Source: Lactobacillus johnsonii (GTDB lineage Bacteria > Bacillota > Bacilli > Lactobacillales > Lactobacillaceae). From it: DNA of 64,000 bases. The stretch spans positions 558,001 through 622,000 of the forward strand of contig NZ_CP059055.1 of assembly GCF_014058685.1 (NCBI RefSeq), given 5' to 3'. Made by a program: the position numbers and the translations under genes. This document shows, piece after piece, positions 31,415-38,331 of the stretch. Each line of letters starts with the position of its first letter. The stretch's first letter is position 1. The notes under the pieces are model-generated. The model was not told the origin of the DNA and did no database searches. It worked only from the letters and a program-made list of their open reading frames with translations.

Positions 31415-31454
31415 AATTTCCTCCTTGAAATTAAAATCTTGATGACCTAAAGAA

Positions 31455-31575
31455 AAAACGACTATCTAAAGAGGATTCCTTTAAGATAGTCGTTTCTGTT
31501 TAAAACTATGTCAAAAAATAGTTTACGCGCAGATTTCCTTGATAGCCTCACGGGACTATATTAAAGGTCATCACA
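31455..31575 (-). promoter_or_regulatory. PyrR attenuation leader of uraA
   Basis: On the minus strand the leader contains TAGTCCCGTGAGGCTA (31542-31557), a good match to the PyrR-binding loop. It is followed by a strong terminator AAACGACTATCTTAAAGG / CCTCTTTAGATAGTCGTTT with a T-run (31455-31496). PyrR bound to UMP would favour the terminator. Confidence 0.88.
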
Positions 31576-31832: not shown

Positions 31833-32597
31833 ATGCTTAAAAGAGAACGATTAAGAAATATTTTAGAAATTGTAACTGATAGAAAGTTTGTAACCGTTGA
31901 TGAATTGGCTAAAACATTGCAAGTTTCAGACATGACGATTAGACGGGACCTTAATGAATTAAATACTACTGGTAAAGTGATGAGAATTCATGGCGGGGCA
32001 CAGGTAATTTCTCAACAAGATTCTGTTGAAAAAAATTATATCCAGAAACGAGAAATTAACATCTCTGAAAAACAAGCGGCAGCTGAAGTTGCAAGTAAAA
32101 TTGTTCAAGATGATGAAACAATTTATGTTGGACCAGGAACAACTTTAGAATTTATGGTTGCAAAATTGAATCAAAAAAACTTGCGAATTGTTACTAATTC
32201 TTTACCTGTTTTTGAAGCTGCTAAAAAGAATGCGAATAATTATGAACTAATTTTAATTGGAGGTTCATATCGTAGAGTTAGTGGGGCTTTTATTGGAGCG
32301 TTAGCAAACAATCAGTTAAGAGGAATATCTTTTGATCGGGGCTTTGTTGGCGTAAACGGAATTAAAGACACCTCGATGATGACAGCTAATTTAGAAGAAG
32401 GACAGACGCAAGGACTAGGATTAAATCGCTCACGTAAAAAATATGTTGTAGCTGATTATCATAAAATTAACCGCAATGATTTTTATGAATTTTACCATTT
32501 GTATGATGTAGATGGGTTAATTACAAGTCCTGGGCTTGATCCTGATATCGTAAAACATTACAGCCAAATCACGACTTTATATCAGGGTAGTGAATAG
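31833..32597 (+). CDS. lacR: lactose PTS repressor, DeoR family
   Basis: A 254-residue DeoR/GlpR-type regulator. The N-terminal winged helix (VTVDELAKTLQVSDMTIRRDLNEL) is followed by the sugar-phosphate sensing DeoRC domain with GGAQVIS, VGPGTTLEFM and LIGGSYRRVSGAF segments. Position directly before lacAB makes it the LacR repressor sensing tagatose-6-phosphate; that assignment is by context. RBS AAGGTG. lacA follows after 15 bp. Confidence 0.9.
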   Translation: MLKRERLRNILEIVTDRKFVTVDELAKTLQVSDMTIRRDLNELNTTGKVMRIHGGAQVISQQDSVEKNYIQKREINISEKQAAAEVASKIVQDDETIYVGPGTTLEFMVAKLNQKNLRIVTNSLPVFEAAKKNANNYELILIGGSYRRVSGAFIGALANNQLRGISFDRGFVGVNGIKDTSMMTANLEEGQTQGLGLNRSRKKYVVADYHKINRNDFYEFYHLYDVDGLITSPGLDPDIVKHYSQITTLYQGSE

Positions 32598-32612: not shown

Positions 32613-33041
32613 ATGAAAGTTGTTATTGGTAGTGACAAGAATGGTTTTGAACTAAAAGAAAAAGTAAAAAAATACTTAGAAGATGGGGGCTACGAGGTGC
32701 TAGATGTAACGCCAGAACCTGCAGAAGATTTTGTGGAATCTAGCTTAAAAGTAACTCACGAAGTATTAGAGCACGGTATTAAAAAAGCTATTATGTTTGA
32801 TGAATACGGTGTAGGGTCTGCTATGGCTTCAAATAAGGTTAAAGGTATGGTAACTGCAGACGTTAATGAAGAAAGAACCGGCCATATGACTGCTATGCAT
32901 AACGGCGCAAAGGCATTAGCAATTGGTAGTGGTATTGTTGGTGAAAAGCTTGCTGAATCAATCATTGACTATTATCTACATACTGAGTATGCGGCTGGAC
33001 GTCATCAAGTTCGTTTAGATATGCTTGAAAAAATGATTTAG
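32613..33041 (+). CDS. lacA: galactose-6-phosphate isomerase subunit LacA
   Basis: RpiB/LacAB-family isomerase subunit, 142 residues. With LacB it converts galactose-6-phosphate to tagatose-6-phosphate in the cytoplasm. The N-terminus [20 protein letters not shown] and the [18 protein letters not shown] segment are diagnostic. RBS AAAGGAG. It is followed 13 bp later by lacB. No lacC or lacD lies in the window. Confidence 0.94.
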
Positions 33042-33054
33042 AGGAGGTATTGGA

Positions 33055-33630
33055 ATGTTTGATAATGATAGACCACAACCAGAATTTGTAGACCCAAAGA
33101 TTGATAAACATACTGTTGTTGCTTTAGGAAATGACCATATTGTCACTCCAATTAAAATGGCACTATCTGATCACTTGAAAGAGGAAGGTTATCAAGTATT
33201 AGATTTCGGTACCTATGATAATACTAGAACACACTATCCAATGTATGGAAAACGTGTTGCCGAAGCTGTTGCCGATGGTAGAGCTGATGTTGGTATTGTA
33301 ATGTGTGGTACTGGTATTGGTATTTCAACGGCGGCTGATAAGAATGAAGGAATTCGGGCAGCCATGGTTGGTGATGTTGTTCAAGCTAAATATGCTAAGC
33401 GTGAATTAAATGCTAACGTTTTAGGGATGGGTGGTATTGTCTTAGGAAGAGACTTTATTTTCTATATTGCGGATGCATTTTTGAATGAAAAGTATCAACC
33501 AACTGAAGAAAATAAGAAGCTAATTGAAAAAATTGATAATATTGCTAAACCAAATCCTGATCAAAAGGATAACGAACACTTCTTTGATGAAGAAAACAAG
33601 AAGTGGGCTGAAGGAGTATATCACGATTAG
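33055..33630 (+). CDS. lacB: galactose-6-phosphate isomerase subunit LacB
   Basis: Partner of Lac[21 protein letters not shown] and [18 protein letters not shown] (catalytic Cys region) are diagnostic. At 191 residues it is about 20 longer than common LacB proteins, mainly through the N-terminal segment [27 protein letters not shown]. It ends the lacRAB group; the lacTFEG group starts behind its own promoter. Confidence 0.94.
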
Positions 33631-33748
33631 GTAGAATGATCATTATTTAGCTTAAGATATAGATTTATAAACCGCACGTAGAAAGGAGATTAATTAATGA
33701 TTAGTCTCTTTTTATTTAAACTACCAATAATAAAATAGTTATAATAAA

Positions 33749-33781
33749 AACGTTTACATTAAAGAGATAACATGCTATTAT
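33749..33781 (+). promoter_or_regulatory. lacTFEG promoter with overlapping cre-like site
   Basis: TTTACA at 33753-33758 and TATTAT at 33776-33781 are 17 bp apart, with a TGC extended -10. AAAACGTTTACAT overlaps the -35; its complement ATGTAAACGTTTT fits the catabolite-responsive-element consensus except at its last conserved bases. CcpA repression is inferred. Confidence 0.75.
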
Positions 33782-33805: not shown

Positions 33806-33893
33806 GGATTGTAACTAATACGATTAGGCAAAACCGCGAACTTTTGATACAGACAACTGCCTGTAAGTCTGTATTGAAATTTCGCGGTTTTTT
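33806..33893 (+). promoter_or_regulatory. ribonucleic antiterminator (RAT) and overlapping terminator of the lac operon
   Basis: The RAT is at 33806-33835, GGATTGTAACTAATACGATT then AGGCAAAACC, a close match to LicT/LacT targets. It overlaps the 5' arm of the terminator formed by AAACCGCGAA (33831) and TTCGCGGTTT (33881) with a T-run. A LacT-type protein must bind the RAT to allow transcription into lacTFEG. Confidence 0.92.
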
Positions 33894-33914
33894 ATTTTCC
33901 TGGAGGAGTGAGAC

Positions 33915-34754
33915 ATGGAATATCGAATAGTCCAAATATTAAACAATAATGTTGCAATTGTTCATACCAGGGATAATAAACAAAATATTGTTATGGGAAG
34001 GGGTGTTGCTTTTCATAAGCAAAAAGGAGATTTAATTTAGGAAGAAAATGTTGATAAGGTATTCGAAATAAAAGATAAGAATACCGTTAATGATCTAACA
34101 ACTTTATTAGCAAATGTGCCATTAGATTTTGTAACAACGAGCTATGATTTGATTGATCAAGTACAAGCTAAATATAAATTTGCTGTTGAGCCATATATTT
34201 ATGTGACCTTAACGACGCACCTATTTGGAGCATATCAACGTTTGATTAAGAACGAAGAAGACGTCAATTATTTGCCAGATTTAAGTGATGCTTATCCTAT
34301 TCCATATCAGATTGCAGATGATATTATTACTGGTTTTCGAAATAGCTTAGATATTTCTTTTCCGGAATCAGAACATAAGAGCATCGCTCTTCACTTCATT
34401 AATGCCCATACTAGTGACGGTATTAAAGATGATAAGAATCAAATAGAAAATGATGAGATTATCGAAGTTGTTCAAGATGAACTGAATAGAAATGGAATAT
34501 ACAGAAGGCAAACGAATGCTAATGATTATGACAGGCTATTAGTTCATCTAAAATATTTTATTAATCGACTTAATAATAATGAACCAGATAGCTTACCAAT
34601 CTCAGAAGGAATGATTGGTGAAATAGAAACTAATTATTCACAAGCATGGCACATAGTTCAGCGCATTAAAGAATTAATGGAGGAAAAATTACAAATAAAG
34701 TTGTCACTAAGTGAACAAACGTATTTAACAATTCATATTCAAAGATTAATTTAA
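33915..34754 (+). pseudogene. lacT: lacT, BglG-family antiterminator, disrupted
   Basis: The gene starts with a good RBS (TGGAGGAG) and MEYRIVQILNNNVAIV, the CAT RNA-binding domain. After residue 36 a one-base loss in the A-run at 34021-34024 leads to TAA at 34032. In the homologous frame a TAG at 34037 follows. An extra A around 34079-34081 restores the first frame, which then runs open through both PRD domains to the stop at 34754. The PRD part is intact (an internal GTG at 34116 could start a 212-residue product), but the RNA-binding domain is destroyed. Regulation of the operon should be affected. Confidence 0.88.
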
Positions 34755-34766
34755 GGAGAATTAGAA

Positions 34767-35123
34767 ATGGATGCAGAAAATCAAATTACTAAAGAAGAAA
34801 TTTCAATGACAGGTTTTTCAATTGTTGCTTATTCAGGAGATGCAAGAACTTATTTAATGGAAGCCATGGATAAGGCTAGTGAAGGAAAGATCACAGAGGC
34901 AAAAGAACTTGTTAGGAAAGCCGAAGAATCTATTAACCTAGCTCATAATGAACAAACTAAGCTCTTAAGCAAGGAAGCTGGAGGAAATGACTTAGATGTA
35001 ACCTTCATTATGGTTCATGGTCAAGATACCTTGATGACAACGATGCTTTTAAAGGACCAGATGAAGACAATTATTAACCTTTATGAACGAGTAAATAAAC
35101 TCGAAGGAAAAAATATTGAATAA
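34767..35123 (+). CDS. lacF: lactose PTS EIIA component
   Basis: Cytoplasmic phosphocarrier of the lactose/cellobiose PTS family, 118 residues, an all-helical trimer in the family. The phospho-histidine is probably His84 in MVHGQDTLMTTML. FSIVAYSGDARTYLMEAM is typical of EIIA(Lac). RBS AGGAGA. It lies 12 bp after the lacT remnant and 51 bp before lacE. Confidence 0.95.
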   Translation: MDAENQITKEEISMTGFSIVAYSGDARTYLMEAMDKASEGKITEAKELVRKAEESINLAHNEQTKLLSKEAGGNDLDVTFIMVHGQDTLMTTMLLKDQMKTIINLYERVNKLEGKNIE

Positions 35124-35174: not shown

Positions 35175-36917
35175 ATGAATGGTTTTACCAAAACAATGGA
35201 TAAGATGAAACCAAAATTTGAAAAAATTGCTTCTAATCCATATGTTTCTGCGGTTCGTGACGGTTTTATTGCCGCGATGCCAATCATTTTGTTTTCGAGT
35301 TTGTTTACATTGATTGCCTATGTACCAAATGCGTGGGGATTTTATTGGCCAAAATCAGTCGAAAATGCACTGGTCTTACCTTACAACTATTCAATGGGAC
35401 TACTTGCCTTATATGTAACTGCAACTTGTGCAAAGAATTTAACTGATTATAAGAACTTGAAGTTGCCTAAGACAAATCAAATCAATTCAATGAATGTTAT
35501 CTTGGCTGCAGAAATCTCATTTATTATTATTGCGATTAAAGTTGGCAAAAATGGGTTAGACTTAACTTATTTAGGCACTCAAGGATTAATTGCATCATAT
35601 ATTGTTGGTTTAATTGTTCCAAATATTTATTACCAATGTGTTAAGCACAATGTAACTATTAAAATGCCAGATGTAGTACCACAAAATATTGCACAGACTT
35701 TTAAAGATATTTTTCCAATGACATTTTCAGTTACATTATTCTGGTTAGTACAAATTGTCTTGAATCAATTATTTGGGGCTAATTTATCTGAAGGTGTGGT
35801 AAAAGTTCTTTCTCCACTATTCCACGCAAGTGATACTTATGGTGGTTTAGCTTTAGTTGCTGGTGCGATGGCTTTCTTCTGGTTTGTTGGTGTACAAGGT
35901 CCTTCAATTGTTGCTCCAGCTGTAGCTGCAATTGAAACGACTAATGTAGGTTTGAACCAACAATTAGTTCATGCCGGAATACAAGCTAGTCATGCTTTAA
36001 CTATTAACGCTCAAGATTACGTTATGAATATGGGTGGTACTGGGTCAACTTTTGTAGTTCCATTTATCTTCTTACTTTTGGCGAAATCAGCTCAAAACAA
36101 GGCAGCAGGTAAGGCAGCAGTTATTCCTGGATGTTTTGGAGTTAATGAGCCTATTTTGTTTGGTGCCCCAATCATCATGAACCCAGTCTTCTTCGTTCCA
36201 TTCTTGATAACACCGATGTTCAATGTTTGTGCTTATAAATTCTTCGTTCAAGTTCTTCATATGAACGCCTTATACAACACTCTTCCTTGGACAGTACCTG
36301 CACCAATTGGTATTATCGTATCCTCTGGTTTTGCTGGCTTATCATTTGTTTATGTGATTTTGACCTTAGTTGTTGATACTTTAATTTGGCTTCCATTCTT
36401 TAAGTTTTATGACAACGATTTGTACAAGCAAGAGCAAGCTAAACTTGCTAAAGAAGAAGCTGCTGGTGTAACTACAGTTCCTACTACTGATTCAGAAGCA
36501 ACTCTTGCAGCTACTGATAAAGAAGCTAAAGATGGCATAACTAAAGACACTAACGTTATGGTTATCTGTGCCGGCGGTGGTACTTCCGGAATTTTGGCTA
36601 AAGCATTAAACAAGATGGCAAAAGAACGTAATTTACCTCTTCATGCTGCAGCTCGTGCTTATGGACAGCATATGGATATTATTAATGACATGGACTTAAT
36701 TATCTTAGCTCCACAAATGGATAGTATGAAAGGTAATTTGCAAGAAATTGCTGATCATGATGGCTCAAAATTAGTTACGACTACGGGACGTCAGTATATT
36801 GAATTAACTCAAAATTCTGATAAAGCATTTAAATTTGTAGTCGATAGCTTAGCTGGTAAAAATGATGAAAAGAAAGATGAAGATACGACAGGAAGTGTAC
36901 CAAATGCAACAATTTAA
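35175..36917 (+). CDS. lacE: lactose PTS EIICB component
   Basis: Membrane permease domain (about 1-410, ten or so spans, with GCFGVNEPILFGAPI-type signature GVNEPILFGAPIIMNP) fused to a C-terminal EIIB domain. Its phospho-cysteine is Cys465 in VICAGGGTSG. It imports lactose with phosphorylation to lactose-6-phosphate. The 580 residues are full length. RBS GAGGAGG. Its end overlaps the lacG start by 14 bp. Confidence 0.96.
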   Translation: MNGFTKTMDKMKPKFEKIASNPYVSAVRDGFIAAMPIILFSSLFTLIAYVPNAWGFYWPKSVENALVLPYNYSMGLLALYVTATCAKNLTDYKNLKLPKTNQINSMNVILAAEISFIIIAIKVGKNGLDLTYLGTQGLIASYIVGLIVPNIYYQCVKHNVTIKMPDVVPQNIAQTFKDIFPMTFSVTLFWLVQIVLNQLFGANLSEGVVKVLSPLFHASDTYGGLALVAGAMAFFWFVGVQGPSIVAPAVAAIETTNVGLNQQLVHAGIQASHALTINAQDYVMNMGGTGSTFVVPFIFLLLAKSAQNKAAGKAAVIPGCFGVNEPILFGAPIIMNPVFFVPFLITPMFNVCAYKFFVQVLHMNALYNTLPWTVPAPIGIIVSSGFAGLSFVYVILTLVVDTLIWLPFFKFYDNDLYKQEQAKLAKEEAAGVTTVPTTDSEATLAATDKEAKDGITKDTNVMVICAGGGTSGILAKALNKMAKERNLPLHAAARAYGQHMDIINDMDLIILAPQMDSMKGNLQEIADHDGSKLVTTTGRQYIELTQNSDKAFKFVVDSLAGKNDEKKDEDTTGSVPNATI

Positions 36918-38331
36918 ATTTCCAAAAGATTTTTATTTCGGTGGAGCAACTGCTGCTTACCAATGTGAAGGCGCAACTAAAGAAGATGGTAAAGGTGAAG
37001 TGATTTGGGATAAGTACTTGCGTGAACAGGGGACCATTAATCCTGATCCGGCCTGTGATTTTTATCATCGTTACCCAGAAGATTTAGATCTATGTAAAAA
37101 ATTCCATATTAATGCAATCAGAGTCTCAATTGACTGGGCAAGAATTTTCCCAGAAGGTGAAGGAAAAATGGAGCCAAGAGGCGTGGAATACTATCACAAG
37201 CTATTCAAAAAATGTCGTGAAGATGGTGTTGAACCTTTTGTAACCCTTCATCACTTTGATACTCCACAAGCTCTGCAAGATAAAGGTGGATGGTTATCAC
37301 AAGAAATGCTGGATGCATTTGTTGAATATGCTAAGTTTTGCTTTAAAGAATATGCCGATGAGGTTAGATACTGGATTACAATTAATGAACCAACTTCAAT
37401 GGCTGGTCAGCAATATGTTAGTGGAACTTTTCCTCCAGCATATAAAGATCAGTTTGATAAATGTTTTGAAGCAGAATATAACCAGAACTTAGTCCATGCA
37501 CGAATCGTTAATGCCTATAAAGAAGCTGGATATACAGGCCAAATTGGTATTGTTCATGCTCTTCAAACTGTCTACCCAGCAACTGATAGTGAAGGTGACA
37601 AGCATGCTGCCGAATTAAAAGATGTGTTGGAAAATAAGTTTTACCTCGATGGAACTTTAGCCGGTAAATATTCTAAAGAAACTCTAGCTTTAGTTAGAGA
37701 AATAATTGAAGCTAATGATCAGAAGATGATTGATATTAAGCCAGAAGATGAAAAAGTTCTCTTAAAGGCCGCTAAGCAGTTAGACTTTGTGGGAGTTAAC
37801 TATTACTTCTCGAAATTTATGAAGGAATATCATGGCGCCACAGAAATTGTTCATAATGGTACTGGTAAAAAAGGAACAGATGTCAATCGAATGAAGGGTG
37901 TTGGTGAGGAGATTCATCCAAAGGACTTGCCAGCAACTGACTGGGACTGGATTATTTATCCACAAGGGATGTATGATCAATTAAAACGTATTTATGATGA
38001 TTATCCTTTAGTTCATTCAATGTATATTACTGAAAATGGTATGGGCTATAAGGATAAGTTTGAAGGTGAAGACAAGATAGTTGATGATACACCTAGAATT
38101 AAATATTTAAGAGATCATATGGAACAAGTAGCTAAGGCAATTGAAGCTGGTATTCCAGTTGATGGTTACTTTGTCTGGTCATTACAAGATATGTTCTCTT
38201 GGACTAATGGTTATTCAAAACGATATGGCTTATTCTATGTCGATTTTAAGACCCAGAAACGTTATGCAAAAAAGAGTGCATATTGGTATAAAGAACTAGC
38301 AGAAACTAGAGAGATTCCTCCGATTGATTAA
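36904..38331 (+). CDS. lacG: 6-phospho-beta-galactosidase (GH1)
   Basis: Hydrolyses lactose-6-phosphate to glucose and galactose-6-phosphate, feeding LacAB. The GH1 acid/base is Glu162 in ITINEP and the nucleophile Glu377 in YITENGMG. The phosphate-site segment FSWTNGYSKRYGLFYVDF near the C-terminus fits LacG. I prefer ATG 36904 (AGGAAG nine bases upstream, 475 residues) over ATG 36862, which would add 14 residues absent from the family. It is coupled to lacE. Confidence 0.95.
   Translation: MQQFKFPKDFYFGGATAAYQCEGATKEDGKGEVIWDKYLREQGTINPDPACDFYHRYPEDLDLCKKFHINAIRVSIDWARIFPEGEGKMEPRGVEYYHKLFKKCREDGVEPFVTLHHFDTPQALQDKGGWLSQEMLDAFVEYAKFCFKEYADEVRYWITINEPTSMAGQQYVSGTFPPAYKDQFDKCFEAEYNQNLVHARIVNAYKEAGYTGQIGIVHALQTVYPATDSEGDKHAAELKDVLENKFYLDGTLAGKYSKETLALVREIIEANDQKMIDIKPEDEKVLLKAAKQLDFVGVNYYFSKFMKEYHGATEIVHNGTGKKGTDVNRMKGVGEEIHPKDLPATDWDWIIYPQGMYDQLKRIYDDYPLVHSMYITENGMGYKDKFEGEDKIVDDTPRIKYLRDHMEQVAKAIEAGIPVDGYFVWSLQDMFSWTNGYSKRYGLFYVDFKTQKRYAKKSAYWYKELAETREIPPID

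Follow-up and report, generated by a model that had tools for sequence, protein, structure and literature searches.

The lac region and its leader

The window, by which I mean the whole stretch of 64,000 nucleotides that was analysed, contains a group of genes for lactose uptake and breakdown in the order lacR-like regulator, lacA, lacB, leader, lacT, lacF, lacE, lacG, so that lacAB lie directly upstream of the leader and lacT. The genome consists of a single contig of 1,951,416 bases, with estimated completeness of 99.99 and estimated contamination of 0. The genes flanking lacT and its leader are these:

31833–32597, plus strand: DeoR/GlpR-type regulator gene, likely lacR (matches DeoR/GlpR NCBIfam models, none reaching its curated cut-off; name given from position)
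32613–33041, plus strand: lacA, galactose-6-phosphate isomerase subunit (NCBIfam NF006380, over cut-off)
33055–33630, plus strand: lacB, galactose-6-phosphate isomerase subunit (NCBIfam NF006381, over cut-off)
34767–35123, plus strand: lacF, lactose PTS EIIA (NCBIfam TIGR00823, 133.6 bits, just under the cut-off of 136.95)
35175–36917, plus strand: lacE, lactose PTS EIICB (TIGR00394, 590 bits against a cut-off of 614; TIGR00410 and TIGR00853 over their cut-offs)
36904–38331, plus strand: lacG, 6-phospho-beta-galactosidase (TIGR01233, 728 bits, over cut-off; start chosen by eye, the ATG immediately ahead of the family match)

By the mechanism known for its family, full-length LacT forms a dimer by way of its CAT domain, and the dimer binds the ribonucleic antiterminator (RAT) in the leader of its own message and thereby blocks the terminator that overlaps it, so that lacT, lacF, lacE, and lacG are transcribed when lactose is present. 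The elements that such a scheme calls for are found between lacB and lacT:

33745–33758, plus strand: cre-like box, partly shared with the -35 (agrees with a cre consensus at 13 of 14 letters)
33753–33781, plus strand: sigma-70-type promoter, -35 TTTACA, 17-base spacer, -10 TATTAT (10/12 in a consensus scan, with TG before the -10)
33806–33835, plus strand: RAT site (by sequence; conserved in relatives)
33830–33891, plus strand: intrinsic terminator, its 5' arm overlapping the 3' end of the RAT (by folding)

The initial annotation had placed a promoter, a RAT, and a terminator ahead of lacT, and sequence, folding, and the consensus scan together bear out a promoter-like site, the RAT, and the terminator. 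The terminator is strong: the fold of 33828–33892 reaches -31 kcal/mol (z -8.8), and none of 200 shuffled sequences did as well. A simple terminator scan does not list it, probably because its stem and loop fall outside the limits of that scan. The RAT is the genome's only match to a fixed-length RAT pattern with three or fewer mismatches, the reversed pattern giving none, and that pattern is blind to shorter RATs. Folded alone, the site does not adopt the expected two-loop structure as its minimum-energy form; this is common where a protein stabilises the site, and it lends no support either. The promoter scan finds two sites against a mean of 1.9 in shuffled sequence and so is no evidence by itself; the position of the promoter is, however, matched in the alignment of close relatives. 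All the leader elements can be aligned with their counterparts in relatives, and the match is close in the nearest six rows (five genomes, one represented twice), from all of which the cre-like box of the window differs at one base. Rfam at its gathering threshold gives no RAT match; its one match in the window is a PyrR binding site on the minus strand (31451–31571; 58 bits, over the gathering score).

A single stop in lacT

The lacT frame runs on the plus strand from the ATG at 33915 to 34754 and falls into three parts:

33915–34037, plus strand: first 41 codons of lacT (Pfam PF03123, E 1.4e-13, CAT positions 1-39 of 57)
34038–34040, plus strand: premature in-frame TAG in lacT (frame reading, CAT model match, gapless comparison)
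34041–34754, plus strand: remainder of lacT, frame unchanged, coding for the last part of the CAT domain and the two PRDs (Pfam PF00874, two stretches; aligned to close LacT copies)

The initial annotation drew a more complicated picture, in which 36 good codons were followed by a one-base loss at 34021–34024, a TAG in the homologous frame at 34037, and a one-base gain at 34079–34081. A premature TAG does exist, shifted from that position to 34038–34040 and lying inside the CAT domain. Before it reaches the TAG the frame stays open for 41 codons rather than 36. The TAG is the sole internal stop: the frame has no others besides 34038 and the natural end at 34752. The loss and the gain are both absent. 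When the DNA is read through the stop, positions 1-55 of 57 of the Pfam CAT model are matched in one frame with one TAG inside, the alignment with four other copies of the gene needs no gap, and the frame that begins with the ATG at 33915 remains the homologous one over its whole length. Two of these observations, the gapless comparison and the one-frame family match, lead me to reject the frameshift hypothesis. The lesion, judged from this comparison, is one substitution-type change, and no homopolymer indel is present where two had been claimed. Both PRDs are in frame behind the stop. What is left is one stop in place of three lesions, no multi-hit decay, and no argument from the number of lesions against a sequencing error.

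The translated piece of 41 residues covers CAT positions 1-39 of 57 and is thus an incomplete domain; the stop falls at about position 40, upstream of the conserved KVFEI-type segment. In the solved structures of the LicT and SacY CAT domains (1l1c, 1auu) the chains are 55 residues long, and in the BglG/LicT family the whole domain, as a dimer, is needed to clamp the RAT. The part of lacT behind the stop has as its best family the NCBIfam LacT model NF041678 (190.6 bits, where the cut-off of 500 is set for the whole protein), and its two PRDs are probably not translated. The next in-frame start is the GTG at 34116, with no ribosome-binding site evident by eye, and a product from there would consist of the PRDs only, with no RNA-binding domain. 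On these grounds a split gene with a working PRD product was considered and rejected.

Comparing lacT with intact homologues, which had been suggested as a check on the three lesions, shows no frameshift. Position by position, with gaps disallowed, the 837-base coding sequence is identical to the same-species copy (L034/L038) at 818 of 837 bases and to three further Lactobacillus copies (L005, L006, L007) at 694, 691, and 695; none of the four contains an internal stop, and tblastn aligns each as one piece with zero gaps. The lacT of L. johnsonii ATCC 33200 (L008/L035) aligns by tblastn in the same frame, its sole gap lying far downstream in the PRD part. That gap reflects a 12-residue in-frame deletion in the ATCC 33200 gene relative to the other close copies.

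Wider searches find the stop nowhere else. With the same-species lacT as query and a threshold of E 1e-40 or better, the genus yields 20 matches in 16 of 75 genomes, and the one match with a stop is that of this genome; 10 other genomes of the genus with a match at 46-100% identity have no internal stop. Across the order, 93 LacT-like matches were found in 81 of 395 genomes (mostly one genome per species, at most six candidates per genome scored), and a stop is present in this genome's match and in none of the other 92, in a survey that reads through stops and could miss genes split by a frameshift. Among more remote relatives of the BglG type some stops are present, in five rows, all below 30% identity. 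The same-species comparison consists of one other genome, MGBC166701 (a code that I take to denote a mouse-gut collection), in which lacT is open. The stop is absent from every relative compared and so is not conserved; it is therefore not a programmed element, and a programmed or conserved stop was rejected. It appears to be a nonsense allele, found in this genome only among those compared.

Probable effect of the stop and alternative readings

I propose that the allele is a simple regulatory null and that the lactose PTS operon, which is controlled by antitermination, is otherwise intact, a reading that I hold with good though not complete confidence. Translation would end after 41 residues, leaving the RNA-binding domain incomplete and LacT presumably unable to bind the RAT. 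Most transcripts would then end at the terminator ahead of lacTFEG, and these genes would be expressed only by leaky read-through, with low expression of lacFEG and a PTS lactose phenotype that is weak or absent. Two features of the sequence agree with the proposal: a RAT overlapping an intrinsic terminator is present ahead of the operon, and lacT is interrupted by a stop while the lac PTS genes lacF, lacE, and lacG remain open. The leader and these three genes look intact, and the lactose uptake genes are probably mostly off in this strain.

How old might such an allele be? Over 6.7 kb around lacT, the window differs from the same-species contig at 53 sites (99.2% identity), of which 27 fall within 1.1 kb, 33862–34938, bounds that were chosen after the sites were seen. 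Inside lacT there are 19 differences from the same-species strain, 14 of them L. johnsonii-like in the window and 5 L. johnsonii-like in the other strain. The stretch 33862–34938 looks like a local recombination tract separating the two strains; such a tract is ordinary within-species mosaicism and is silent on function. Counted by codon, the differences from the same-species copy are 8 silent and 3 residue-changing behind the stop and 4 and 2, respectively, before it. There is no sign here of prolonged decay behind the stop, and the stop is for that reason either recent or an error.

The second of these possibilities is the leading rival: that the TAG is an error of sequencing or assembly, or a mutation acquired in culture and absent from the natural population, so that lacT is intact in nature. 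The initial annotation had thought simple error unlikely in view of three lesions, an argument that falls with the lesions themselves. A sequencing error could account for one lesion of the substitution type, which weakens the null reading, and the lesion occurs in no other genome compared and has no decay behind it. Against error stand the single contig with its estimates of completeness and contamination, the absence of internal stops from the neighbouring lac genes and from two paralogous antiterminators, and the nature of the lesion, a point change unlike the usual homopolymer indel. I judge error or culture mutation to be unlikely, though a rival to be taken seriously.

A little less likely still is a second rival, that a different antiterminator with a CAT domain acts in trans to open the lac terminator, so that lacFEG stays inducible by another sugar. 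It is compatible with a null allele, and both may hold. A search of the genome for other BglG-family proteins with CAT domains, which had been suggested in the hope of matching domains, found two uninterrupted CAT-PRD proteins, each with its own, different RAT-like site ahead of it and a gene reading by eye as its own PTS EII behind it. One lies at about 934-937 kb (L036:2757-5892) and the other at about 1.78-1.79 Mb, near 1787 kb (L037:3132-7327), where a GH1 gene follows the PTS EII-like gene. In both RAT-like sites, which were read by eye, the apical part is unlike that of the lac RAT. The site at 934 kb has the flanks GGATTGT.AC and GGCAA.ACC in common with the lac RAT, and cross-talk between its antiterminator and the lac RAT is possible on that account; it is, however, three bases shorter (27 vs 30, with boundaries set by eye). 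That each paralogue precedes what looks like its own PTS gene also tells against a role at lac. A stronger version, in which the operon has been handed to another antiterminator (most likely that at 934 kb), the PTS is induced by a different sugar in trans, and the stop is tolerated with the role of LacT replaced, seems to me very improbable. The earlier suggestion that lacFEG is off, leaky, or opened in trans thus survives in narrower form: these genes are probably expressed weakly, by leakage, or through another antiterminator, and the candidates for the last are now two proteins.

The weakest rival, that read-through of the stop or reinitiation yields enough full-length LacT for partial regulation, has in its favor that the remainder of the frame is open, and is scarcely credible given a stop that is not programmed, a reinitiation product from 34116 that would lack the RNA-binding domain, and no suppressor-type anticodon (for TAG, TAA, or TGA) among 80 tRNA genes found by ARAGORN on selected stretches and tallied by eye. 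A suppressor tRNA was rejected on that tally; Rfam counts 78 tRNAs with 150 of 209 candidates scored, and a missed tRNA gene is possible.

If the stop is real, the regulatory null gives a simple genetic reason why a strain with a complete lactose PTS cluster might use it poorly, in line with what has been reported for L. rhamnosus GG. It also makes cross-talk between RATs testable, in a strain that retains two other CAT-domain antiterminators.

Lactose might still be used without the PTS. At 1384-1391 kb (L110:470-6661) the genome encodes a LacS-like GPH symporter with a C-terminal EIIA domain, and both domain models score over their cut-offs. Also encoded there is a GH2 beta-galactosidase in two parts that resemble LacL/LacM, each part matching one end of the model and scoring below the cut-off for the whole protein. 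This permease and beta-galactosidase may compensate for a loss of lacT. Elsewhere in the same genome, 1692284–1692811 carries what remains of a decayed beta-glycosidase, a piece of a GH1 gene interrupted by three internal stops.

Losses of lacT in other lactic acid bacteria

Growth data from related strains fit the null reading, yet they cut both ways. In Table 3 of PMC2997000, none of five L. taiwanensis isolates grew on lactose, and one of them, BL263, is reported to have a lactose utilization cluster. If the present strain belongs to L. taiwanensis, failure to grow on lactose may be a general trait of the species for reasons besides the stop, because lacT is open in the one other genome of the same species; and the same table lists three of seven L. 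johnsonii strains as unable to grow on lactose.

The closest model for the arrangement is the lacTEGF operon of Lacticaseibacillus casei, where, according to PMC5940811, a cre, a RAT, and a terminator likewise precede lacT, and genes for the lac PTS and phospho-beta-galactosidase follow. Use of lactose there reportedly depends on antitermination by LacT, and BL195, a lacT mutant, served on lactose as a negative control. The present operon differs in the premature stop in lacT and in its gene order, T-F-E-G rather than T-E-G-F.

No published account of this particular allele was found in the open-licence literature; natural loss of lacT has been described elsewhere. L. rhamnosus GG, as described in PMC3744422, has a non-functional lacT with the lac PTS genes retained and is said not to metabolise lactose. 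In that strain lacG is altered too, whereas in the present genome a single stop codon is the lesion and lacG appears intact. In Streptococcus infantarius, a different genus, PMC4051162 describes lacT as disrupted by transposases and the lactose PTS as inactivated thereby, an insertion in place of the nonsense codon seen here. Loss of lacT as such is thus already known in other lactic acid bacteria, and the allele in this genome would be an ordinary regulatory null of the same kind.
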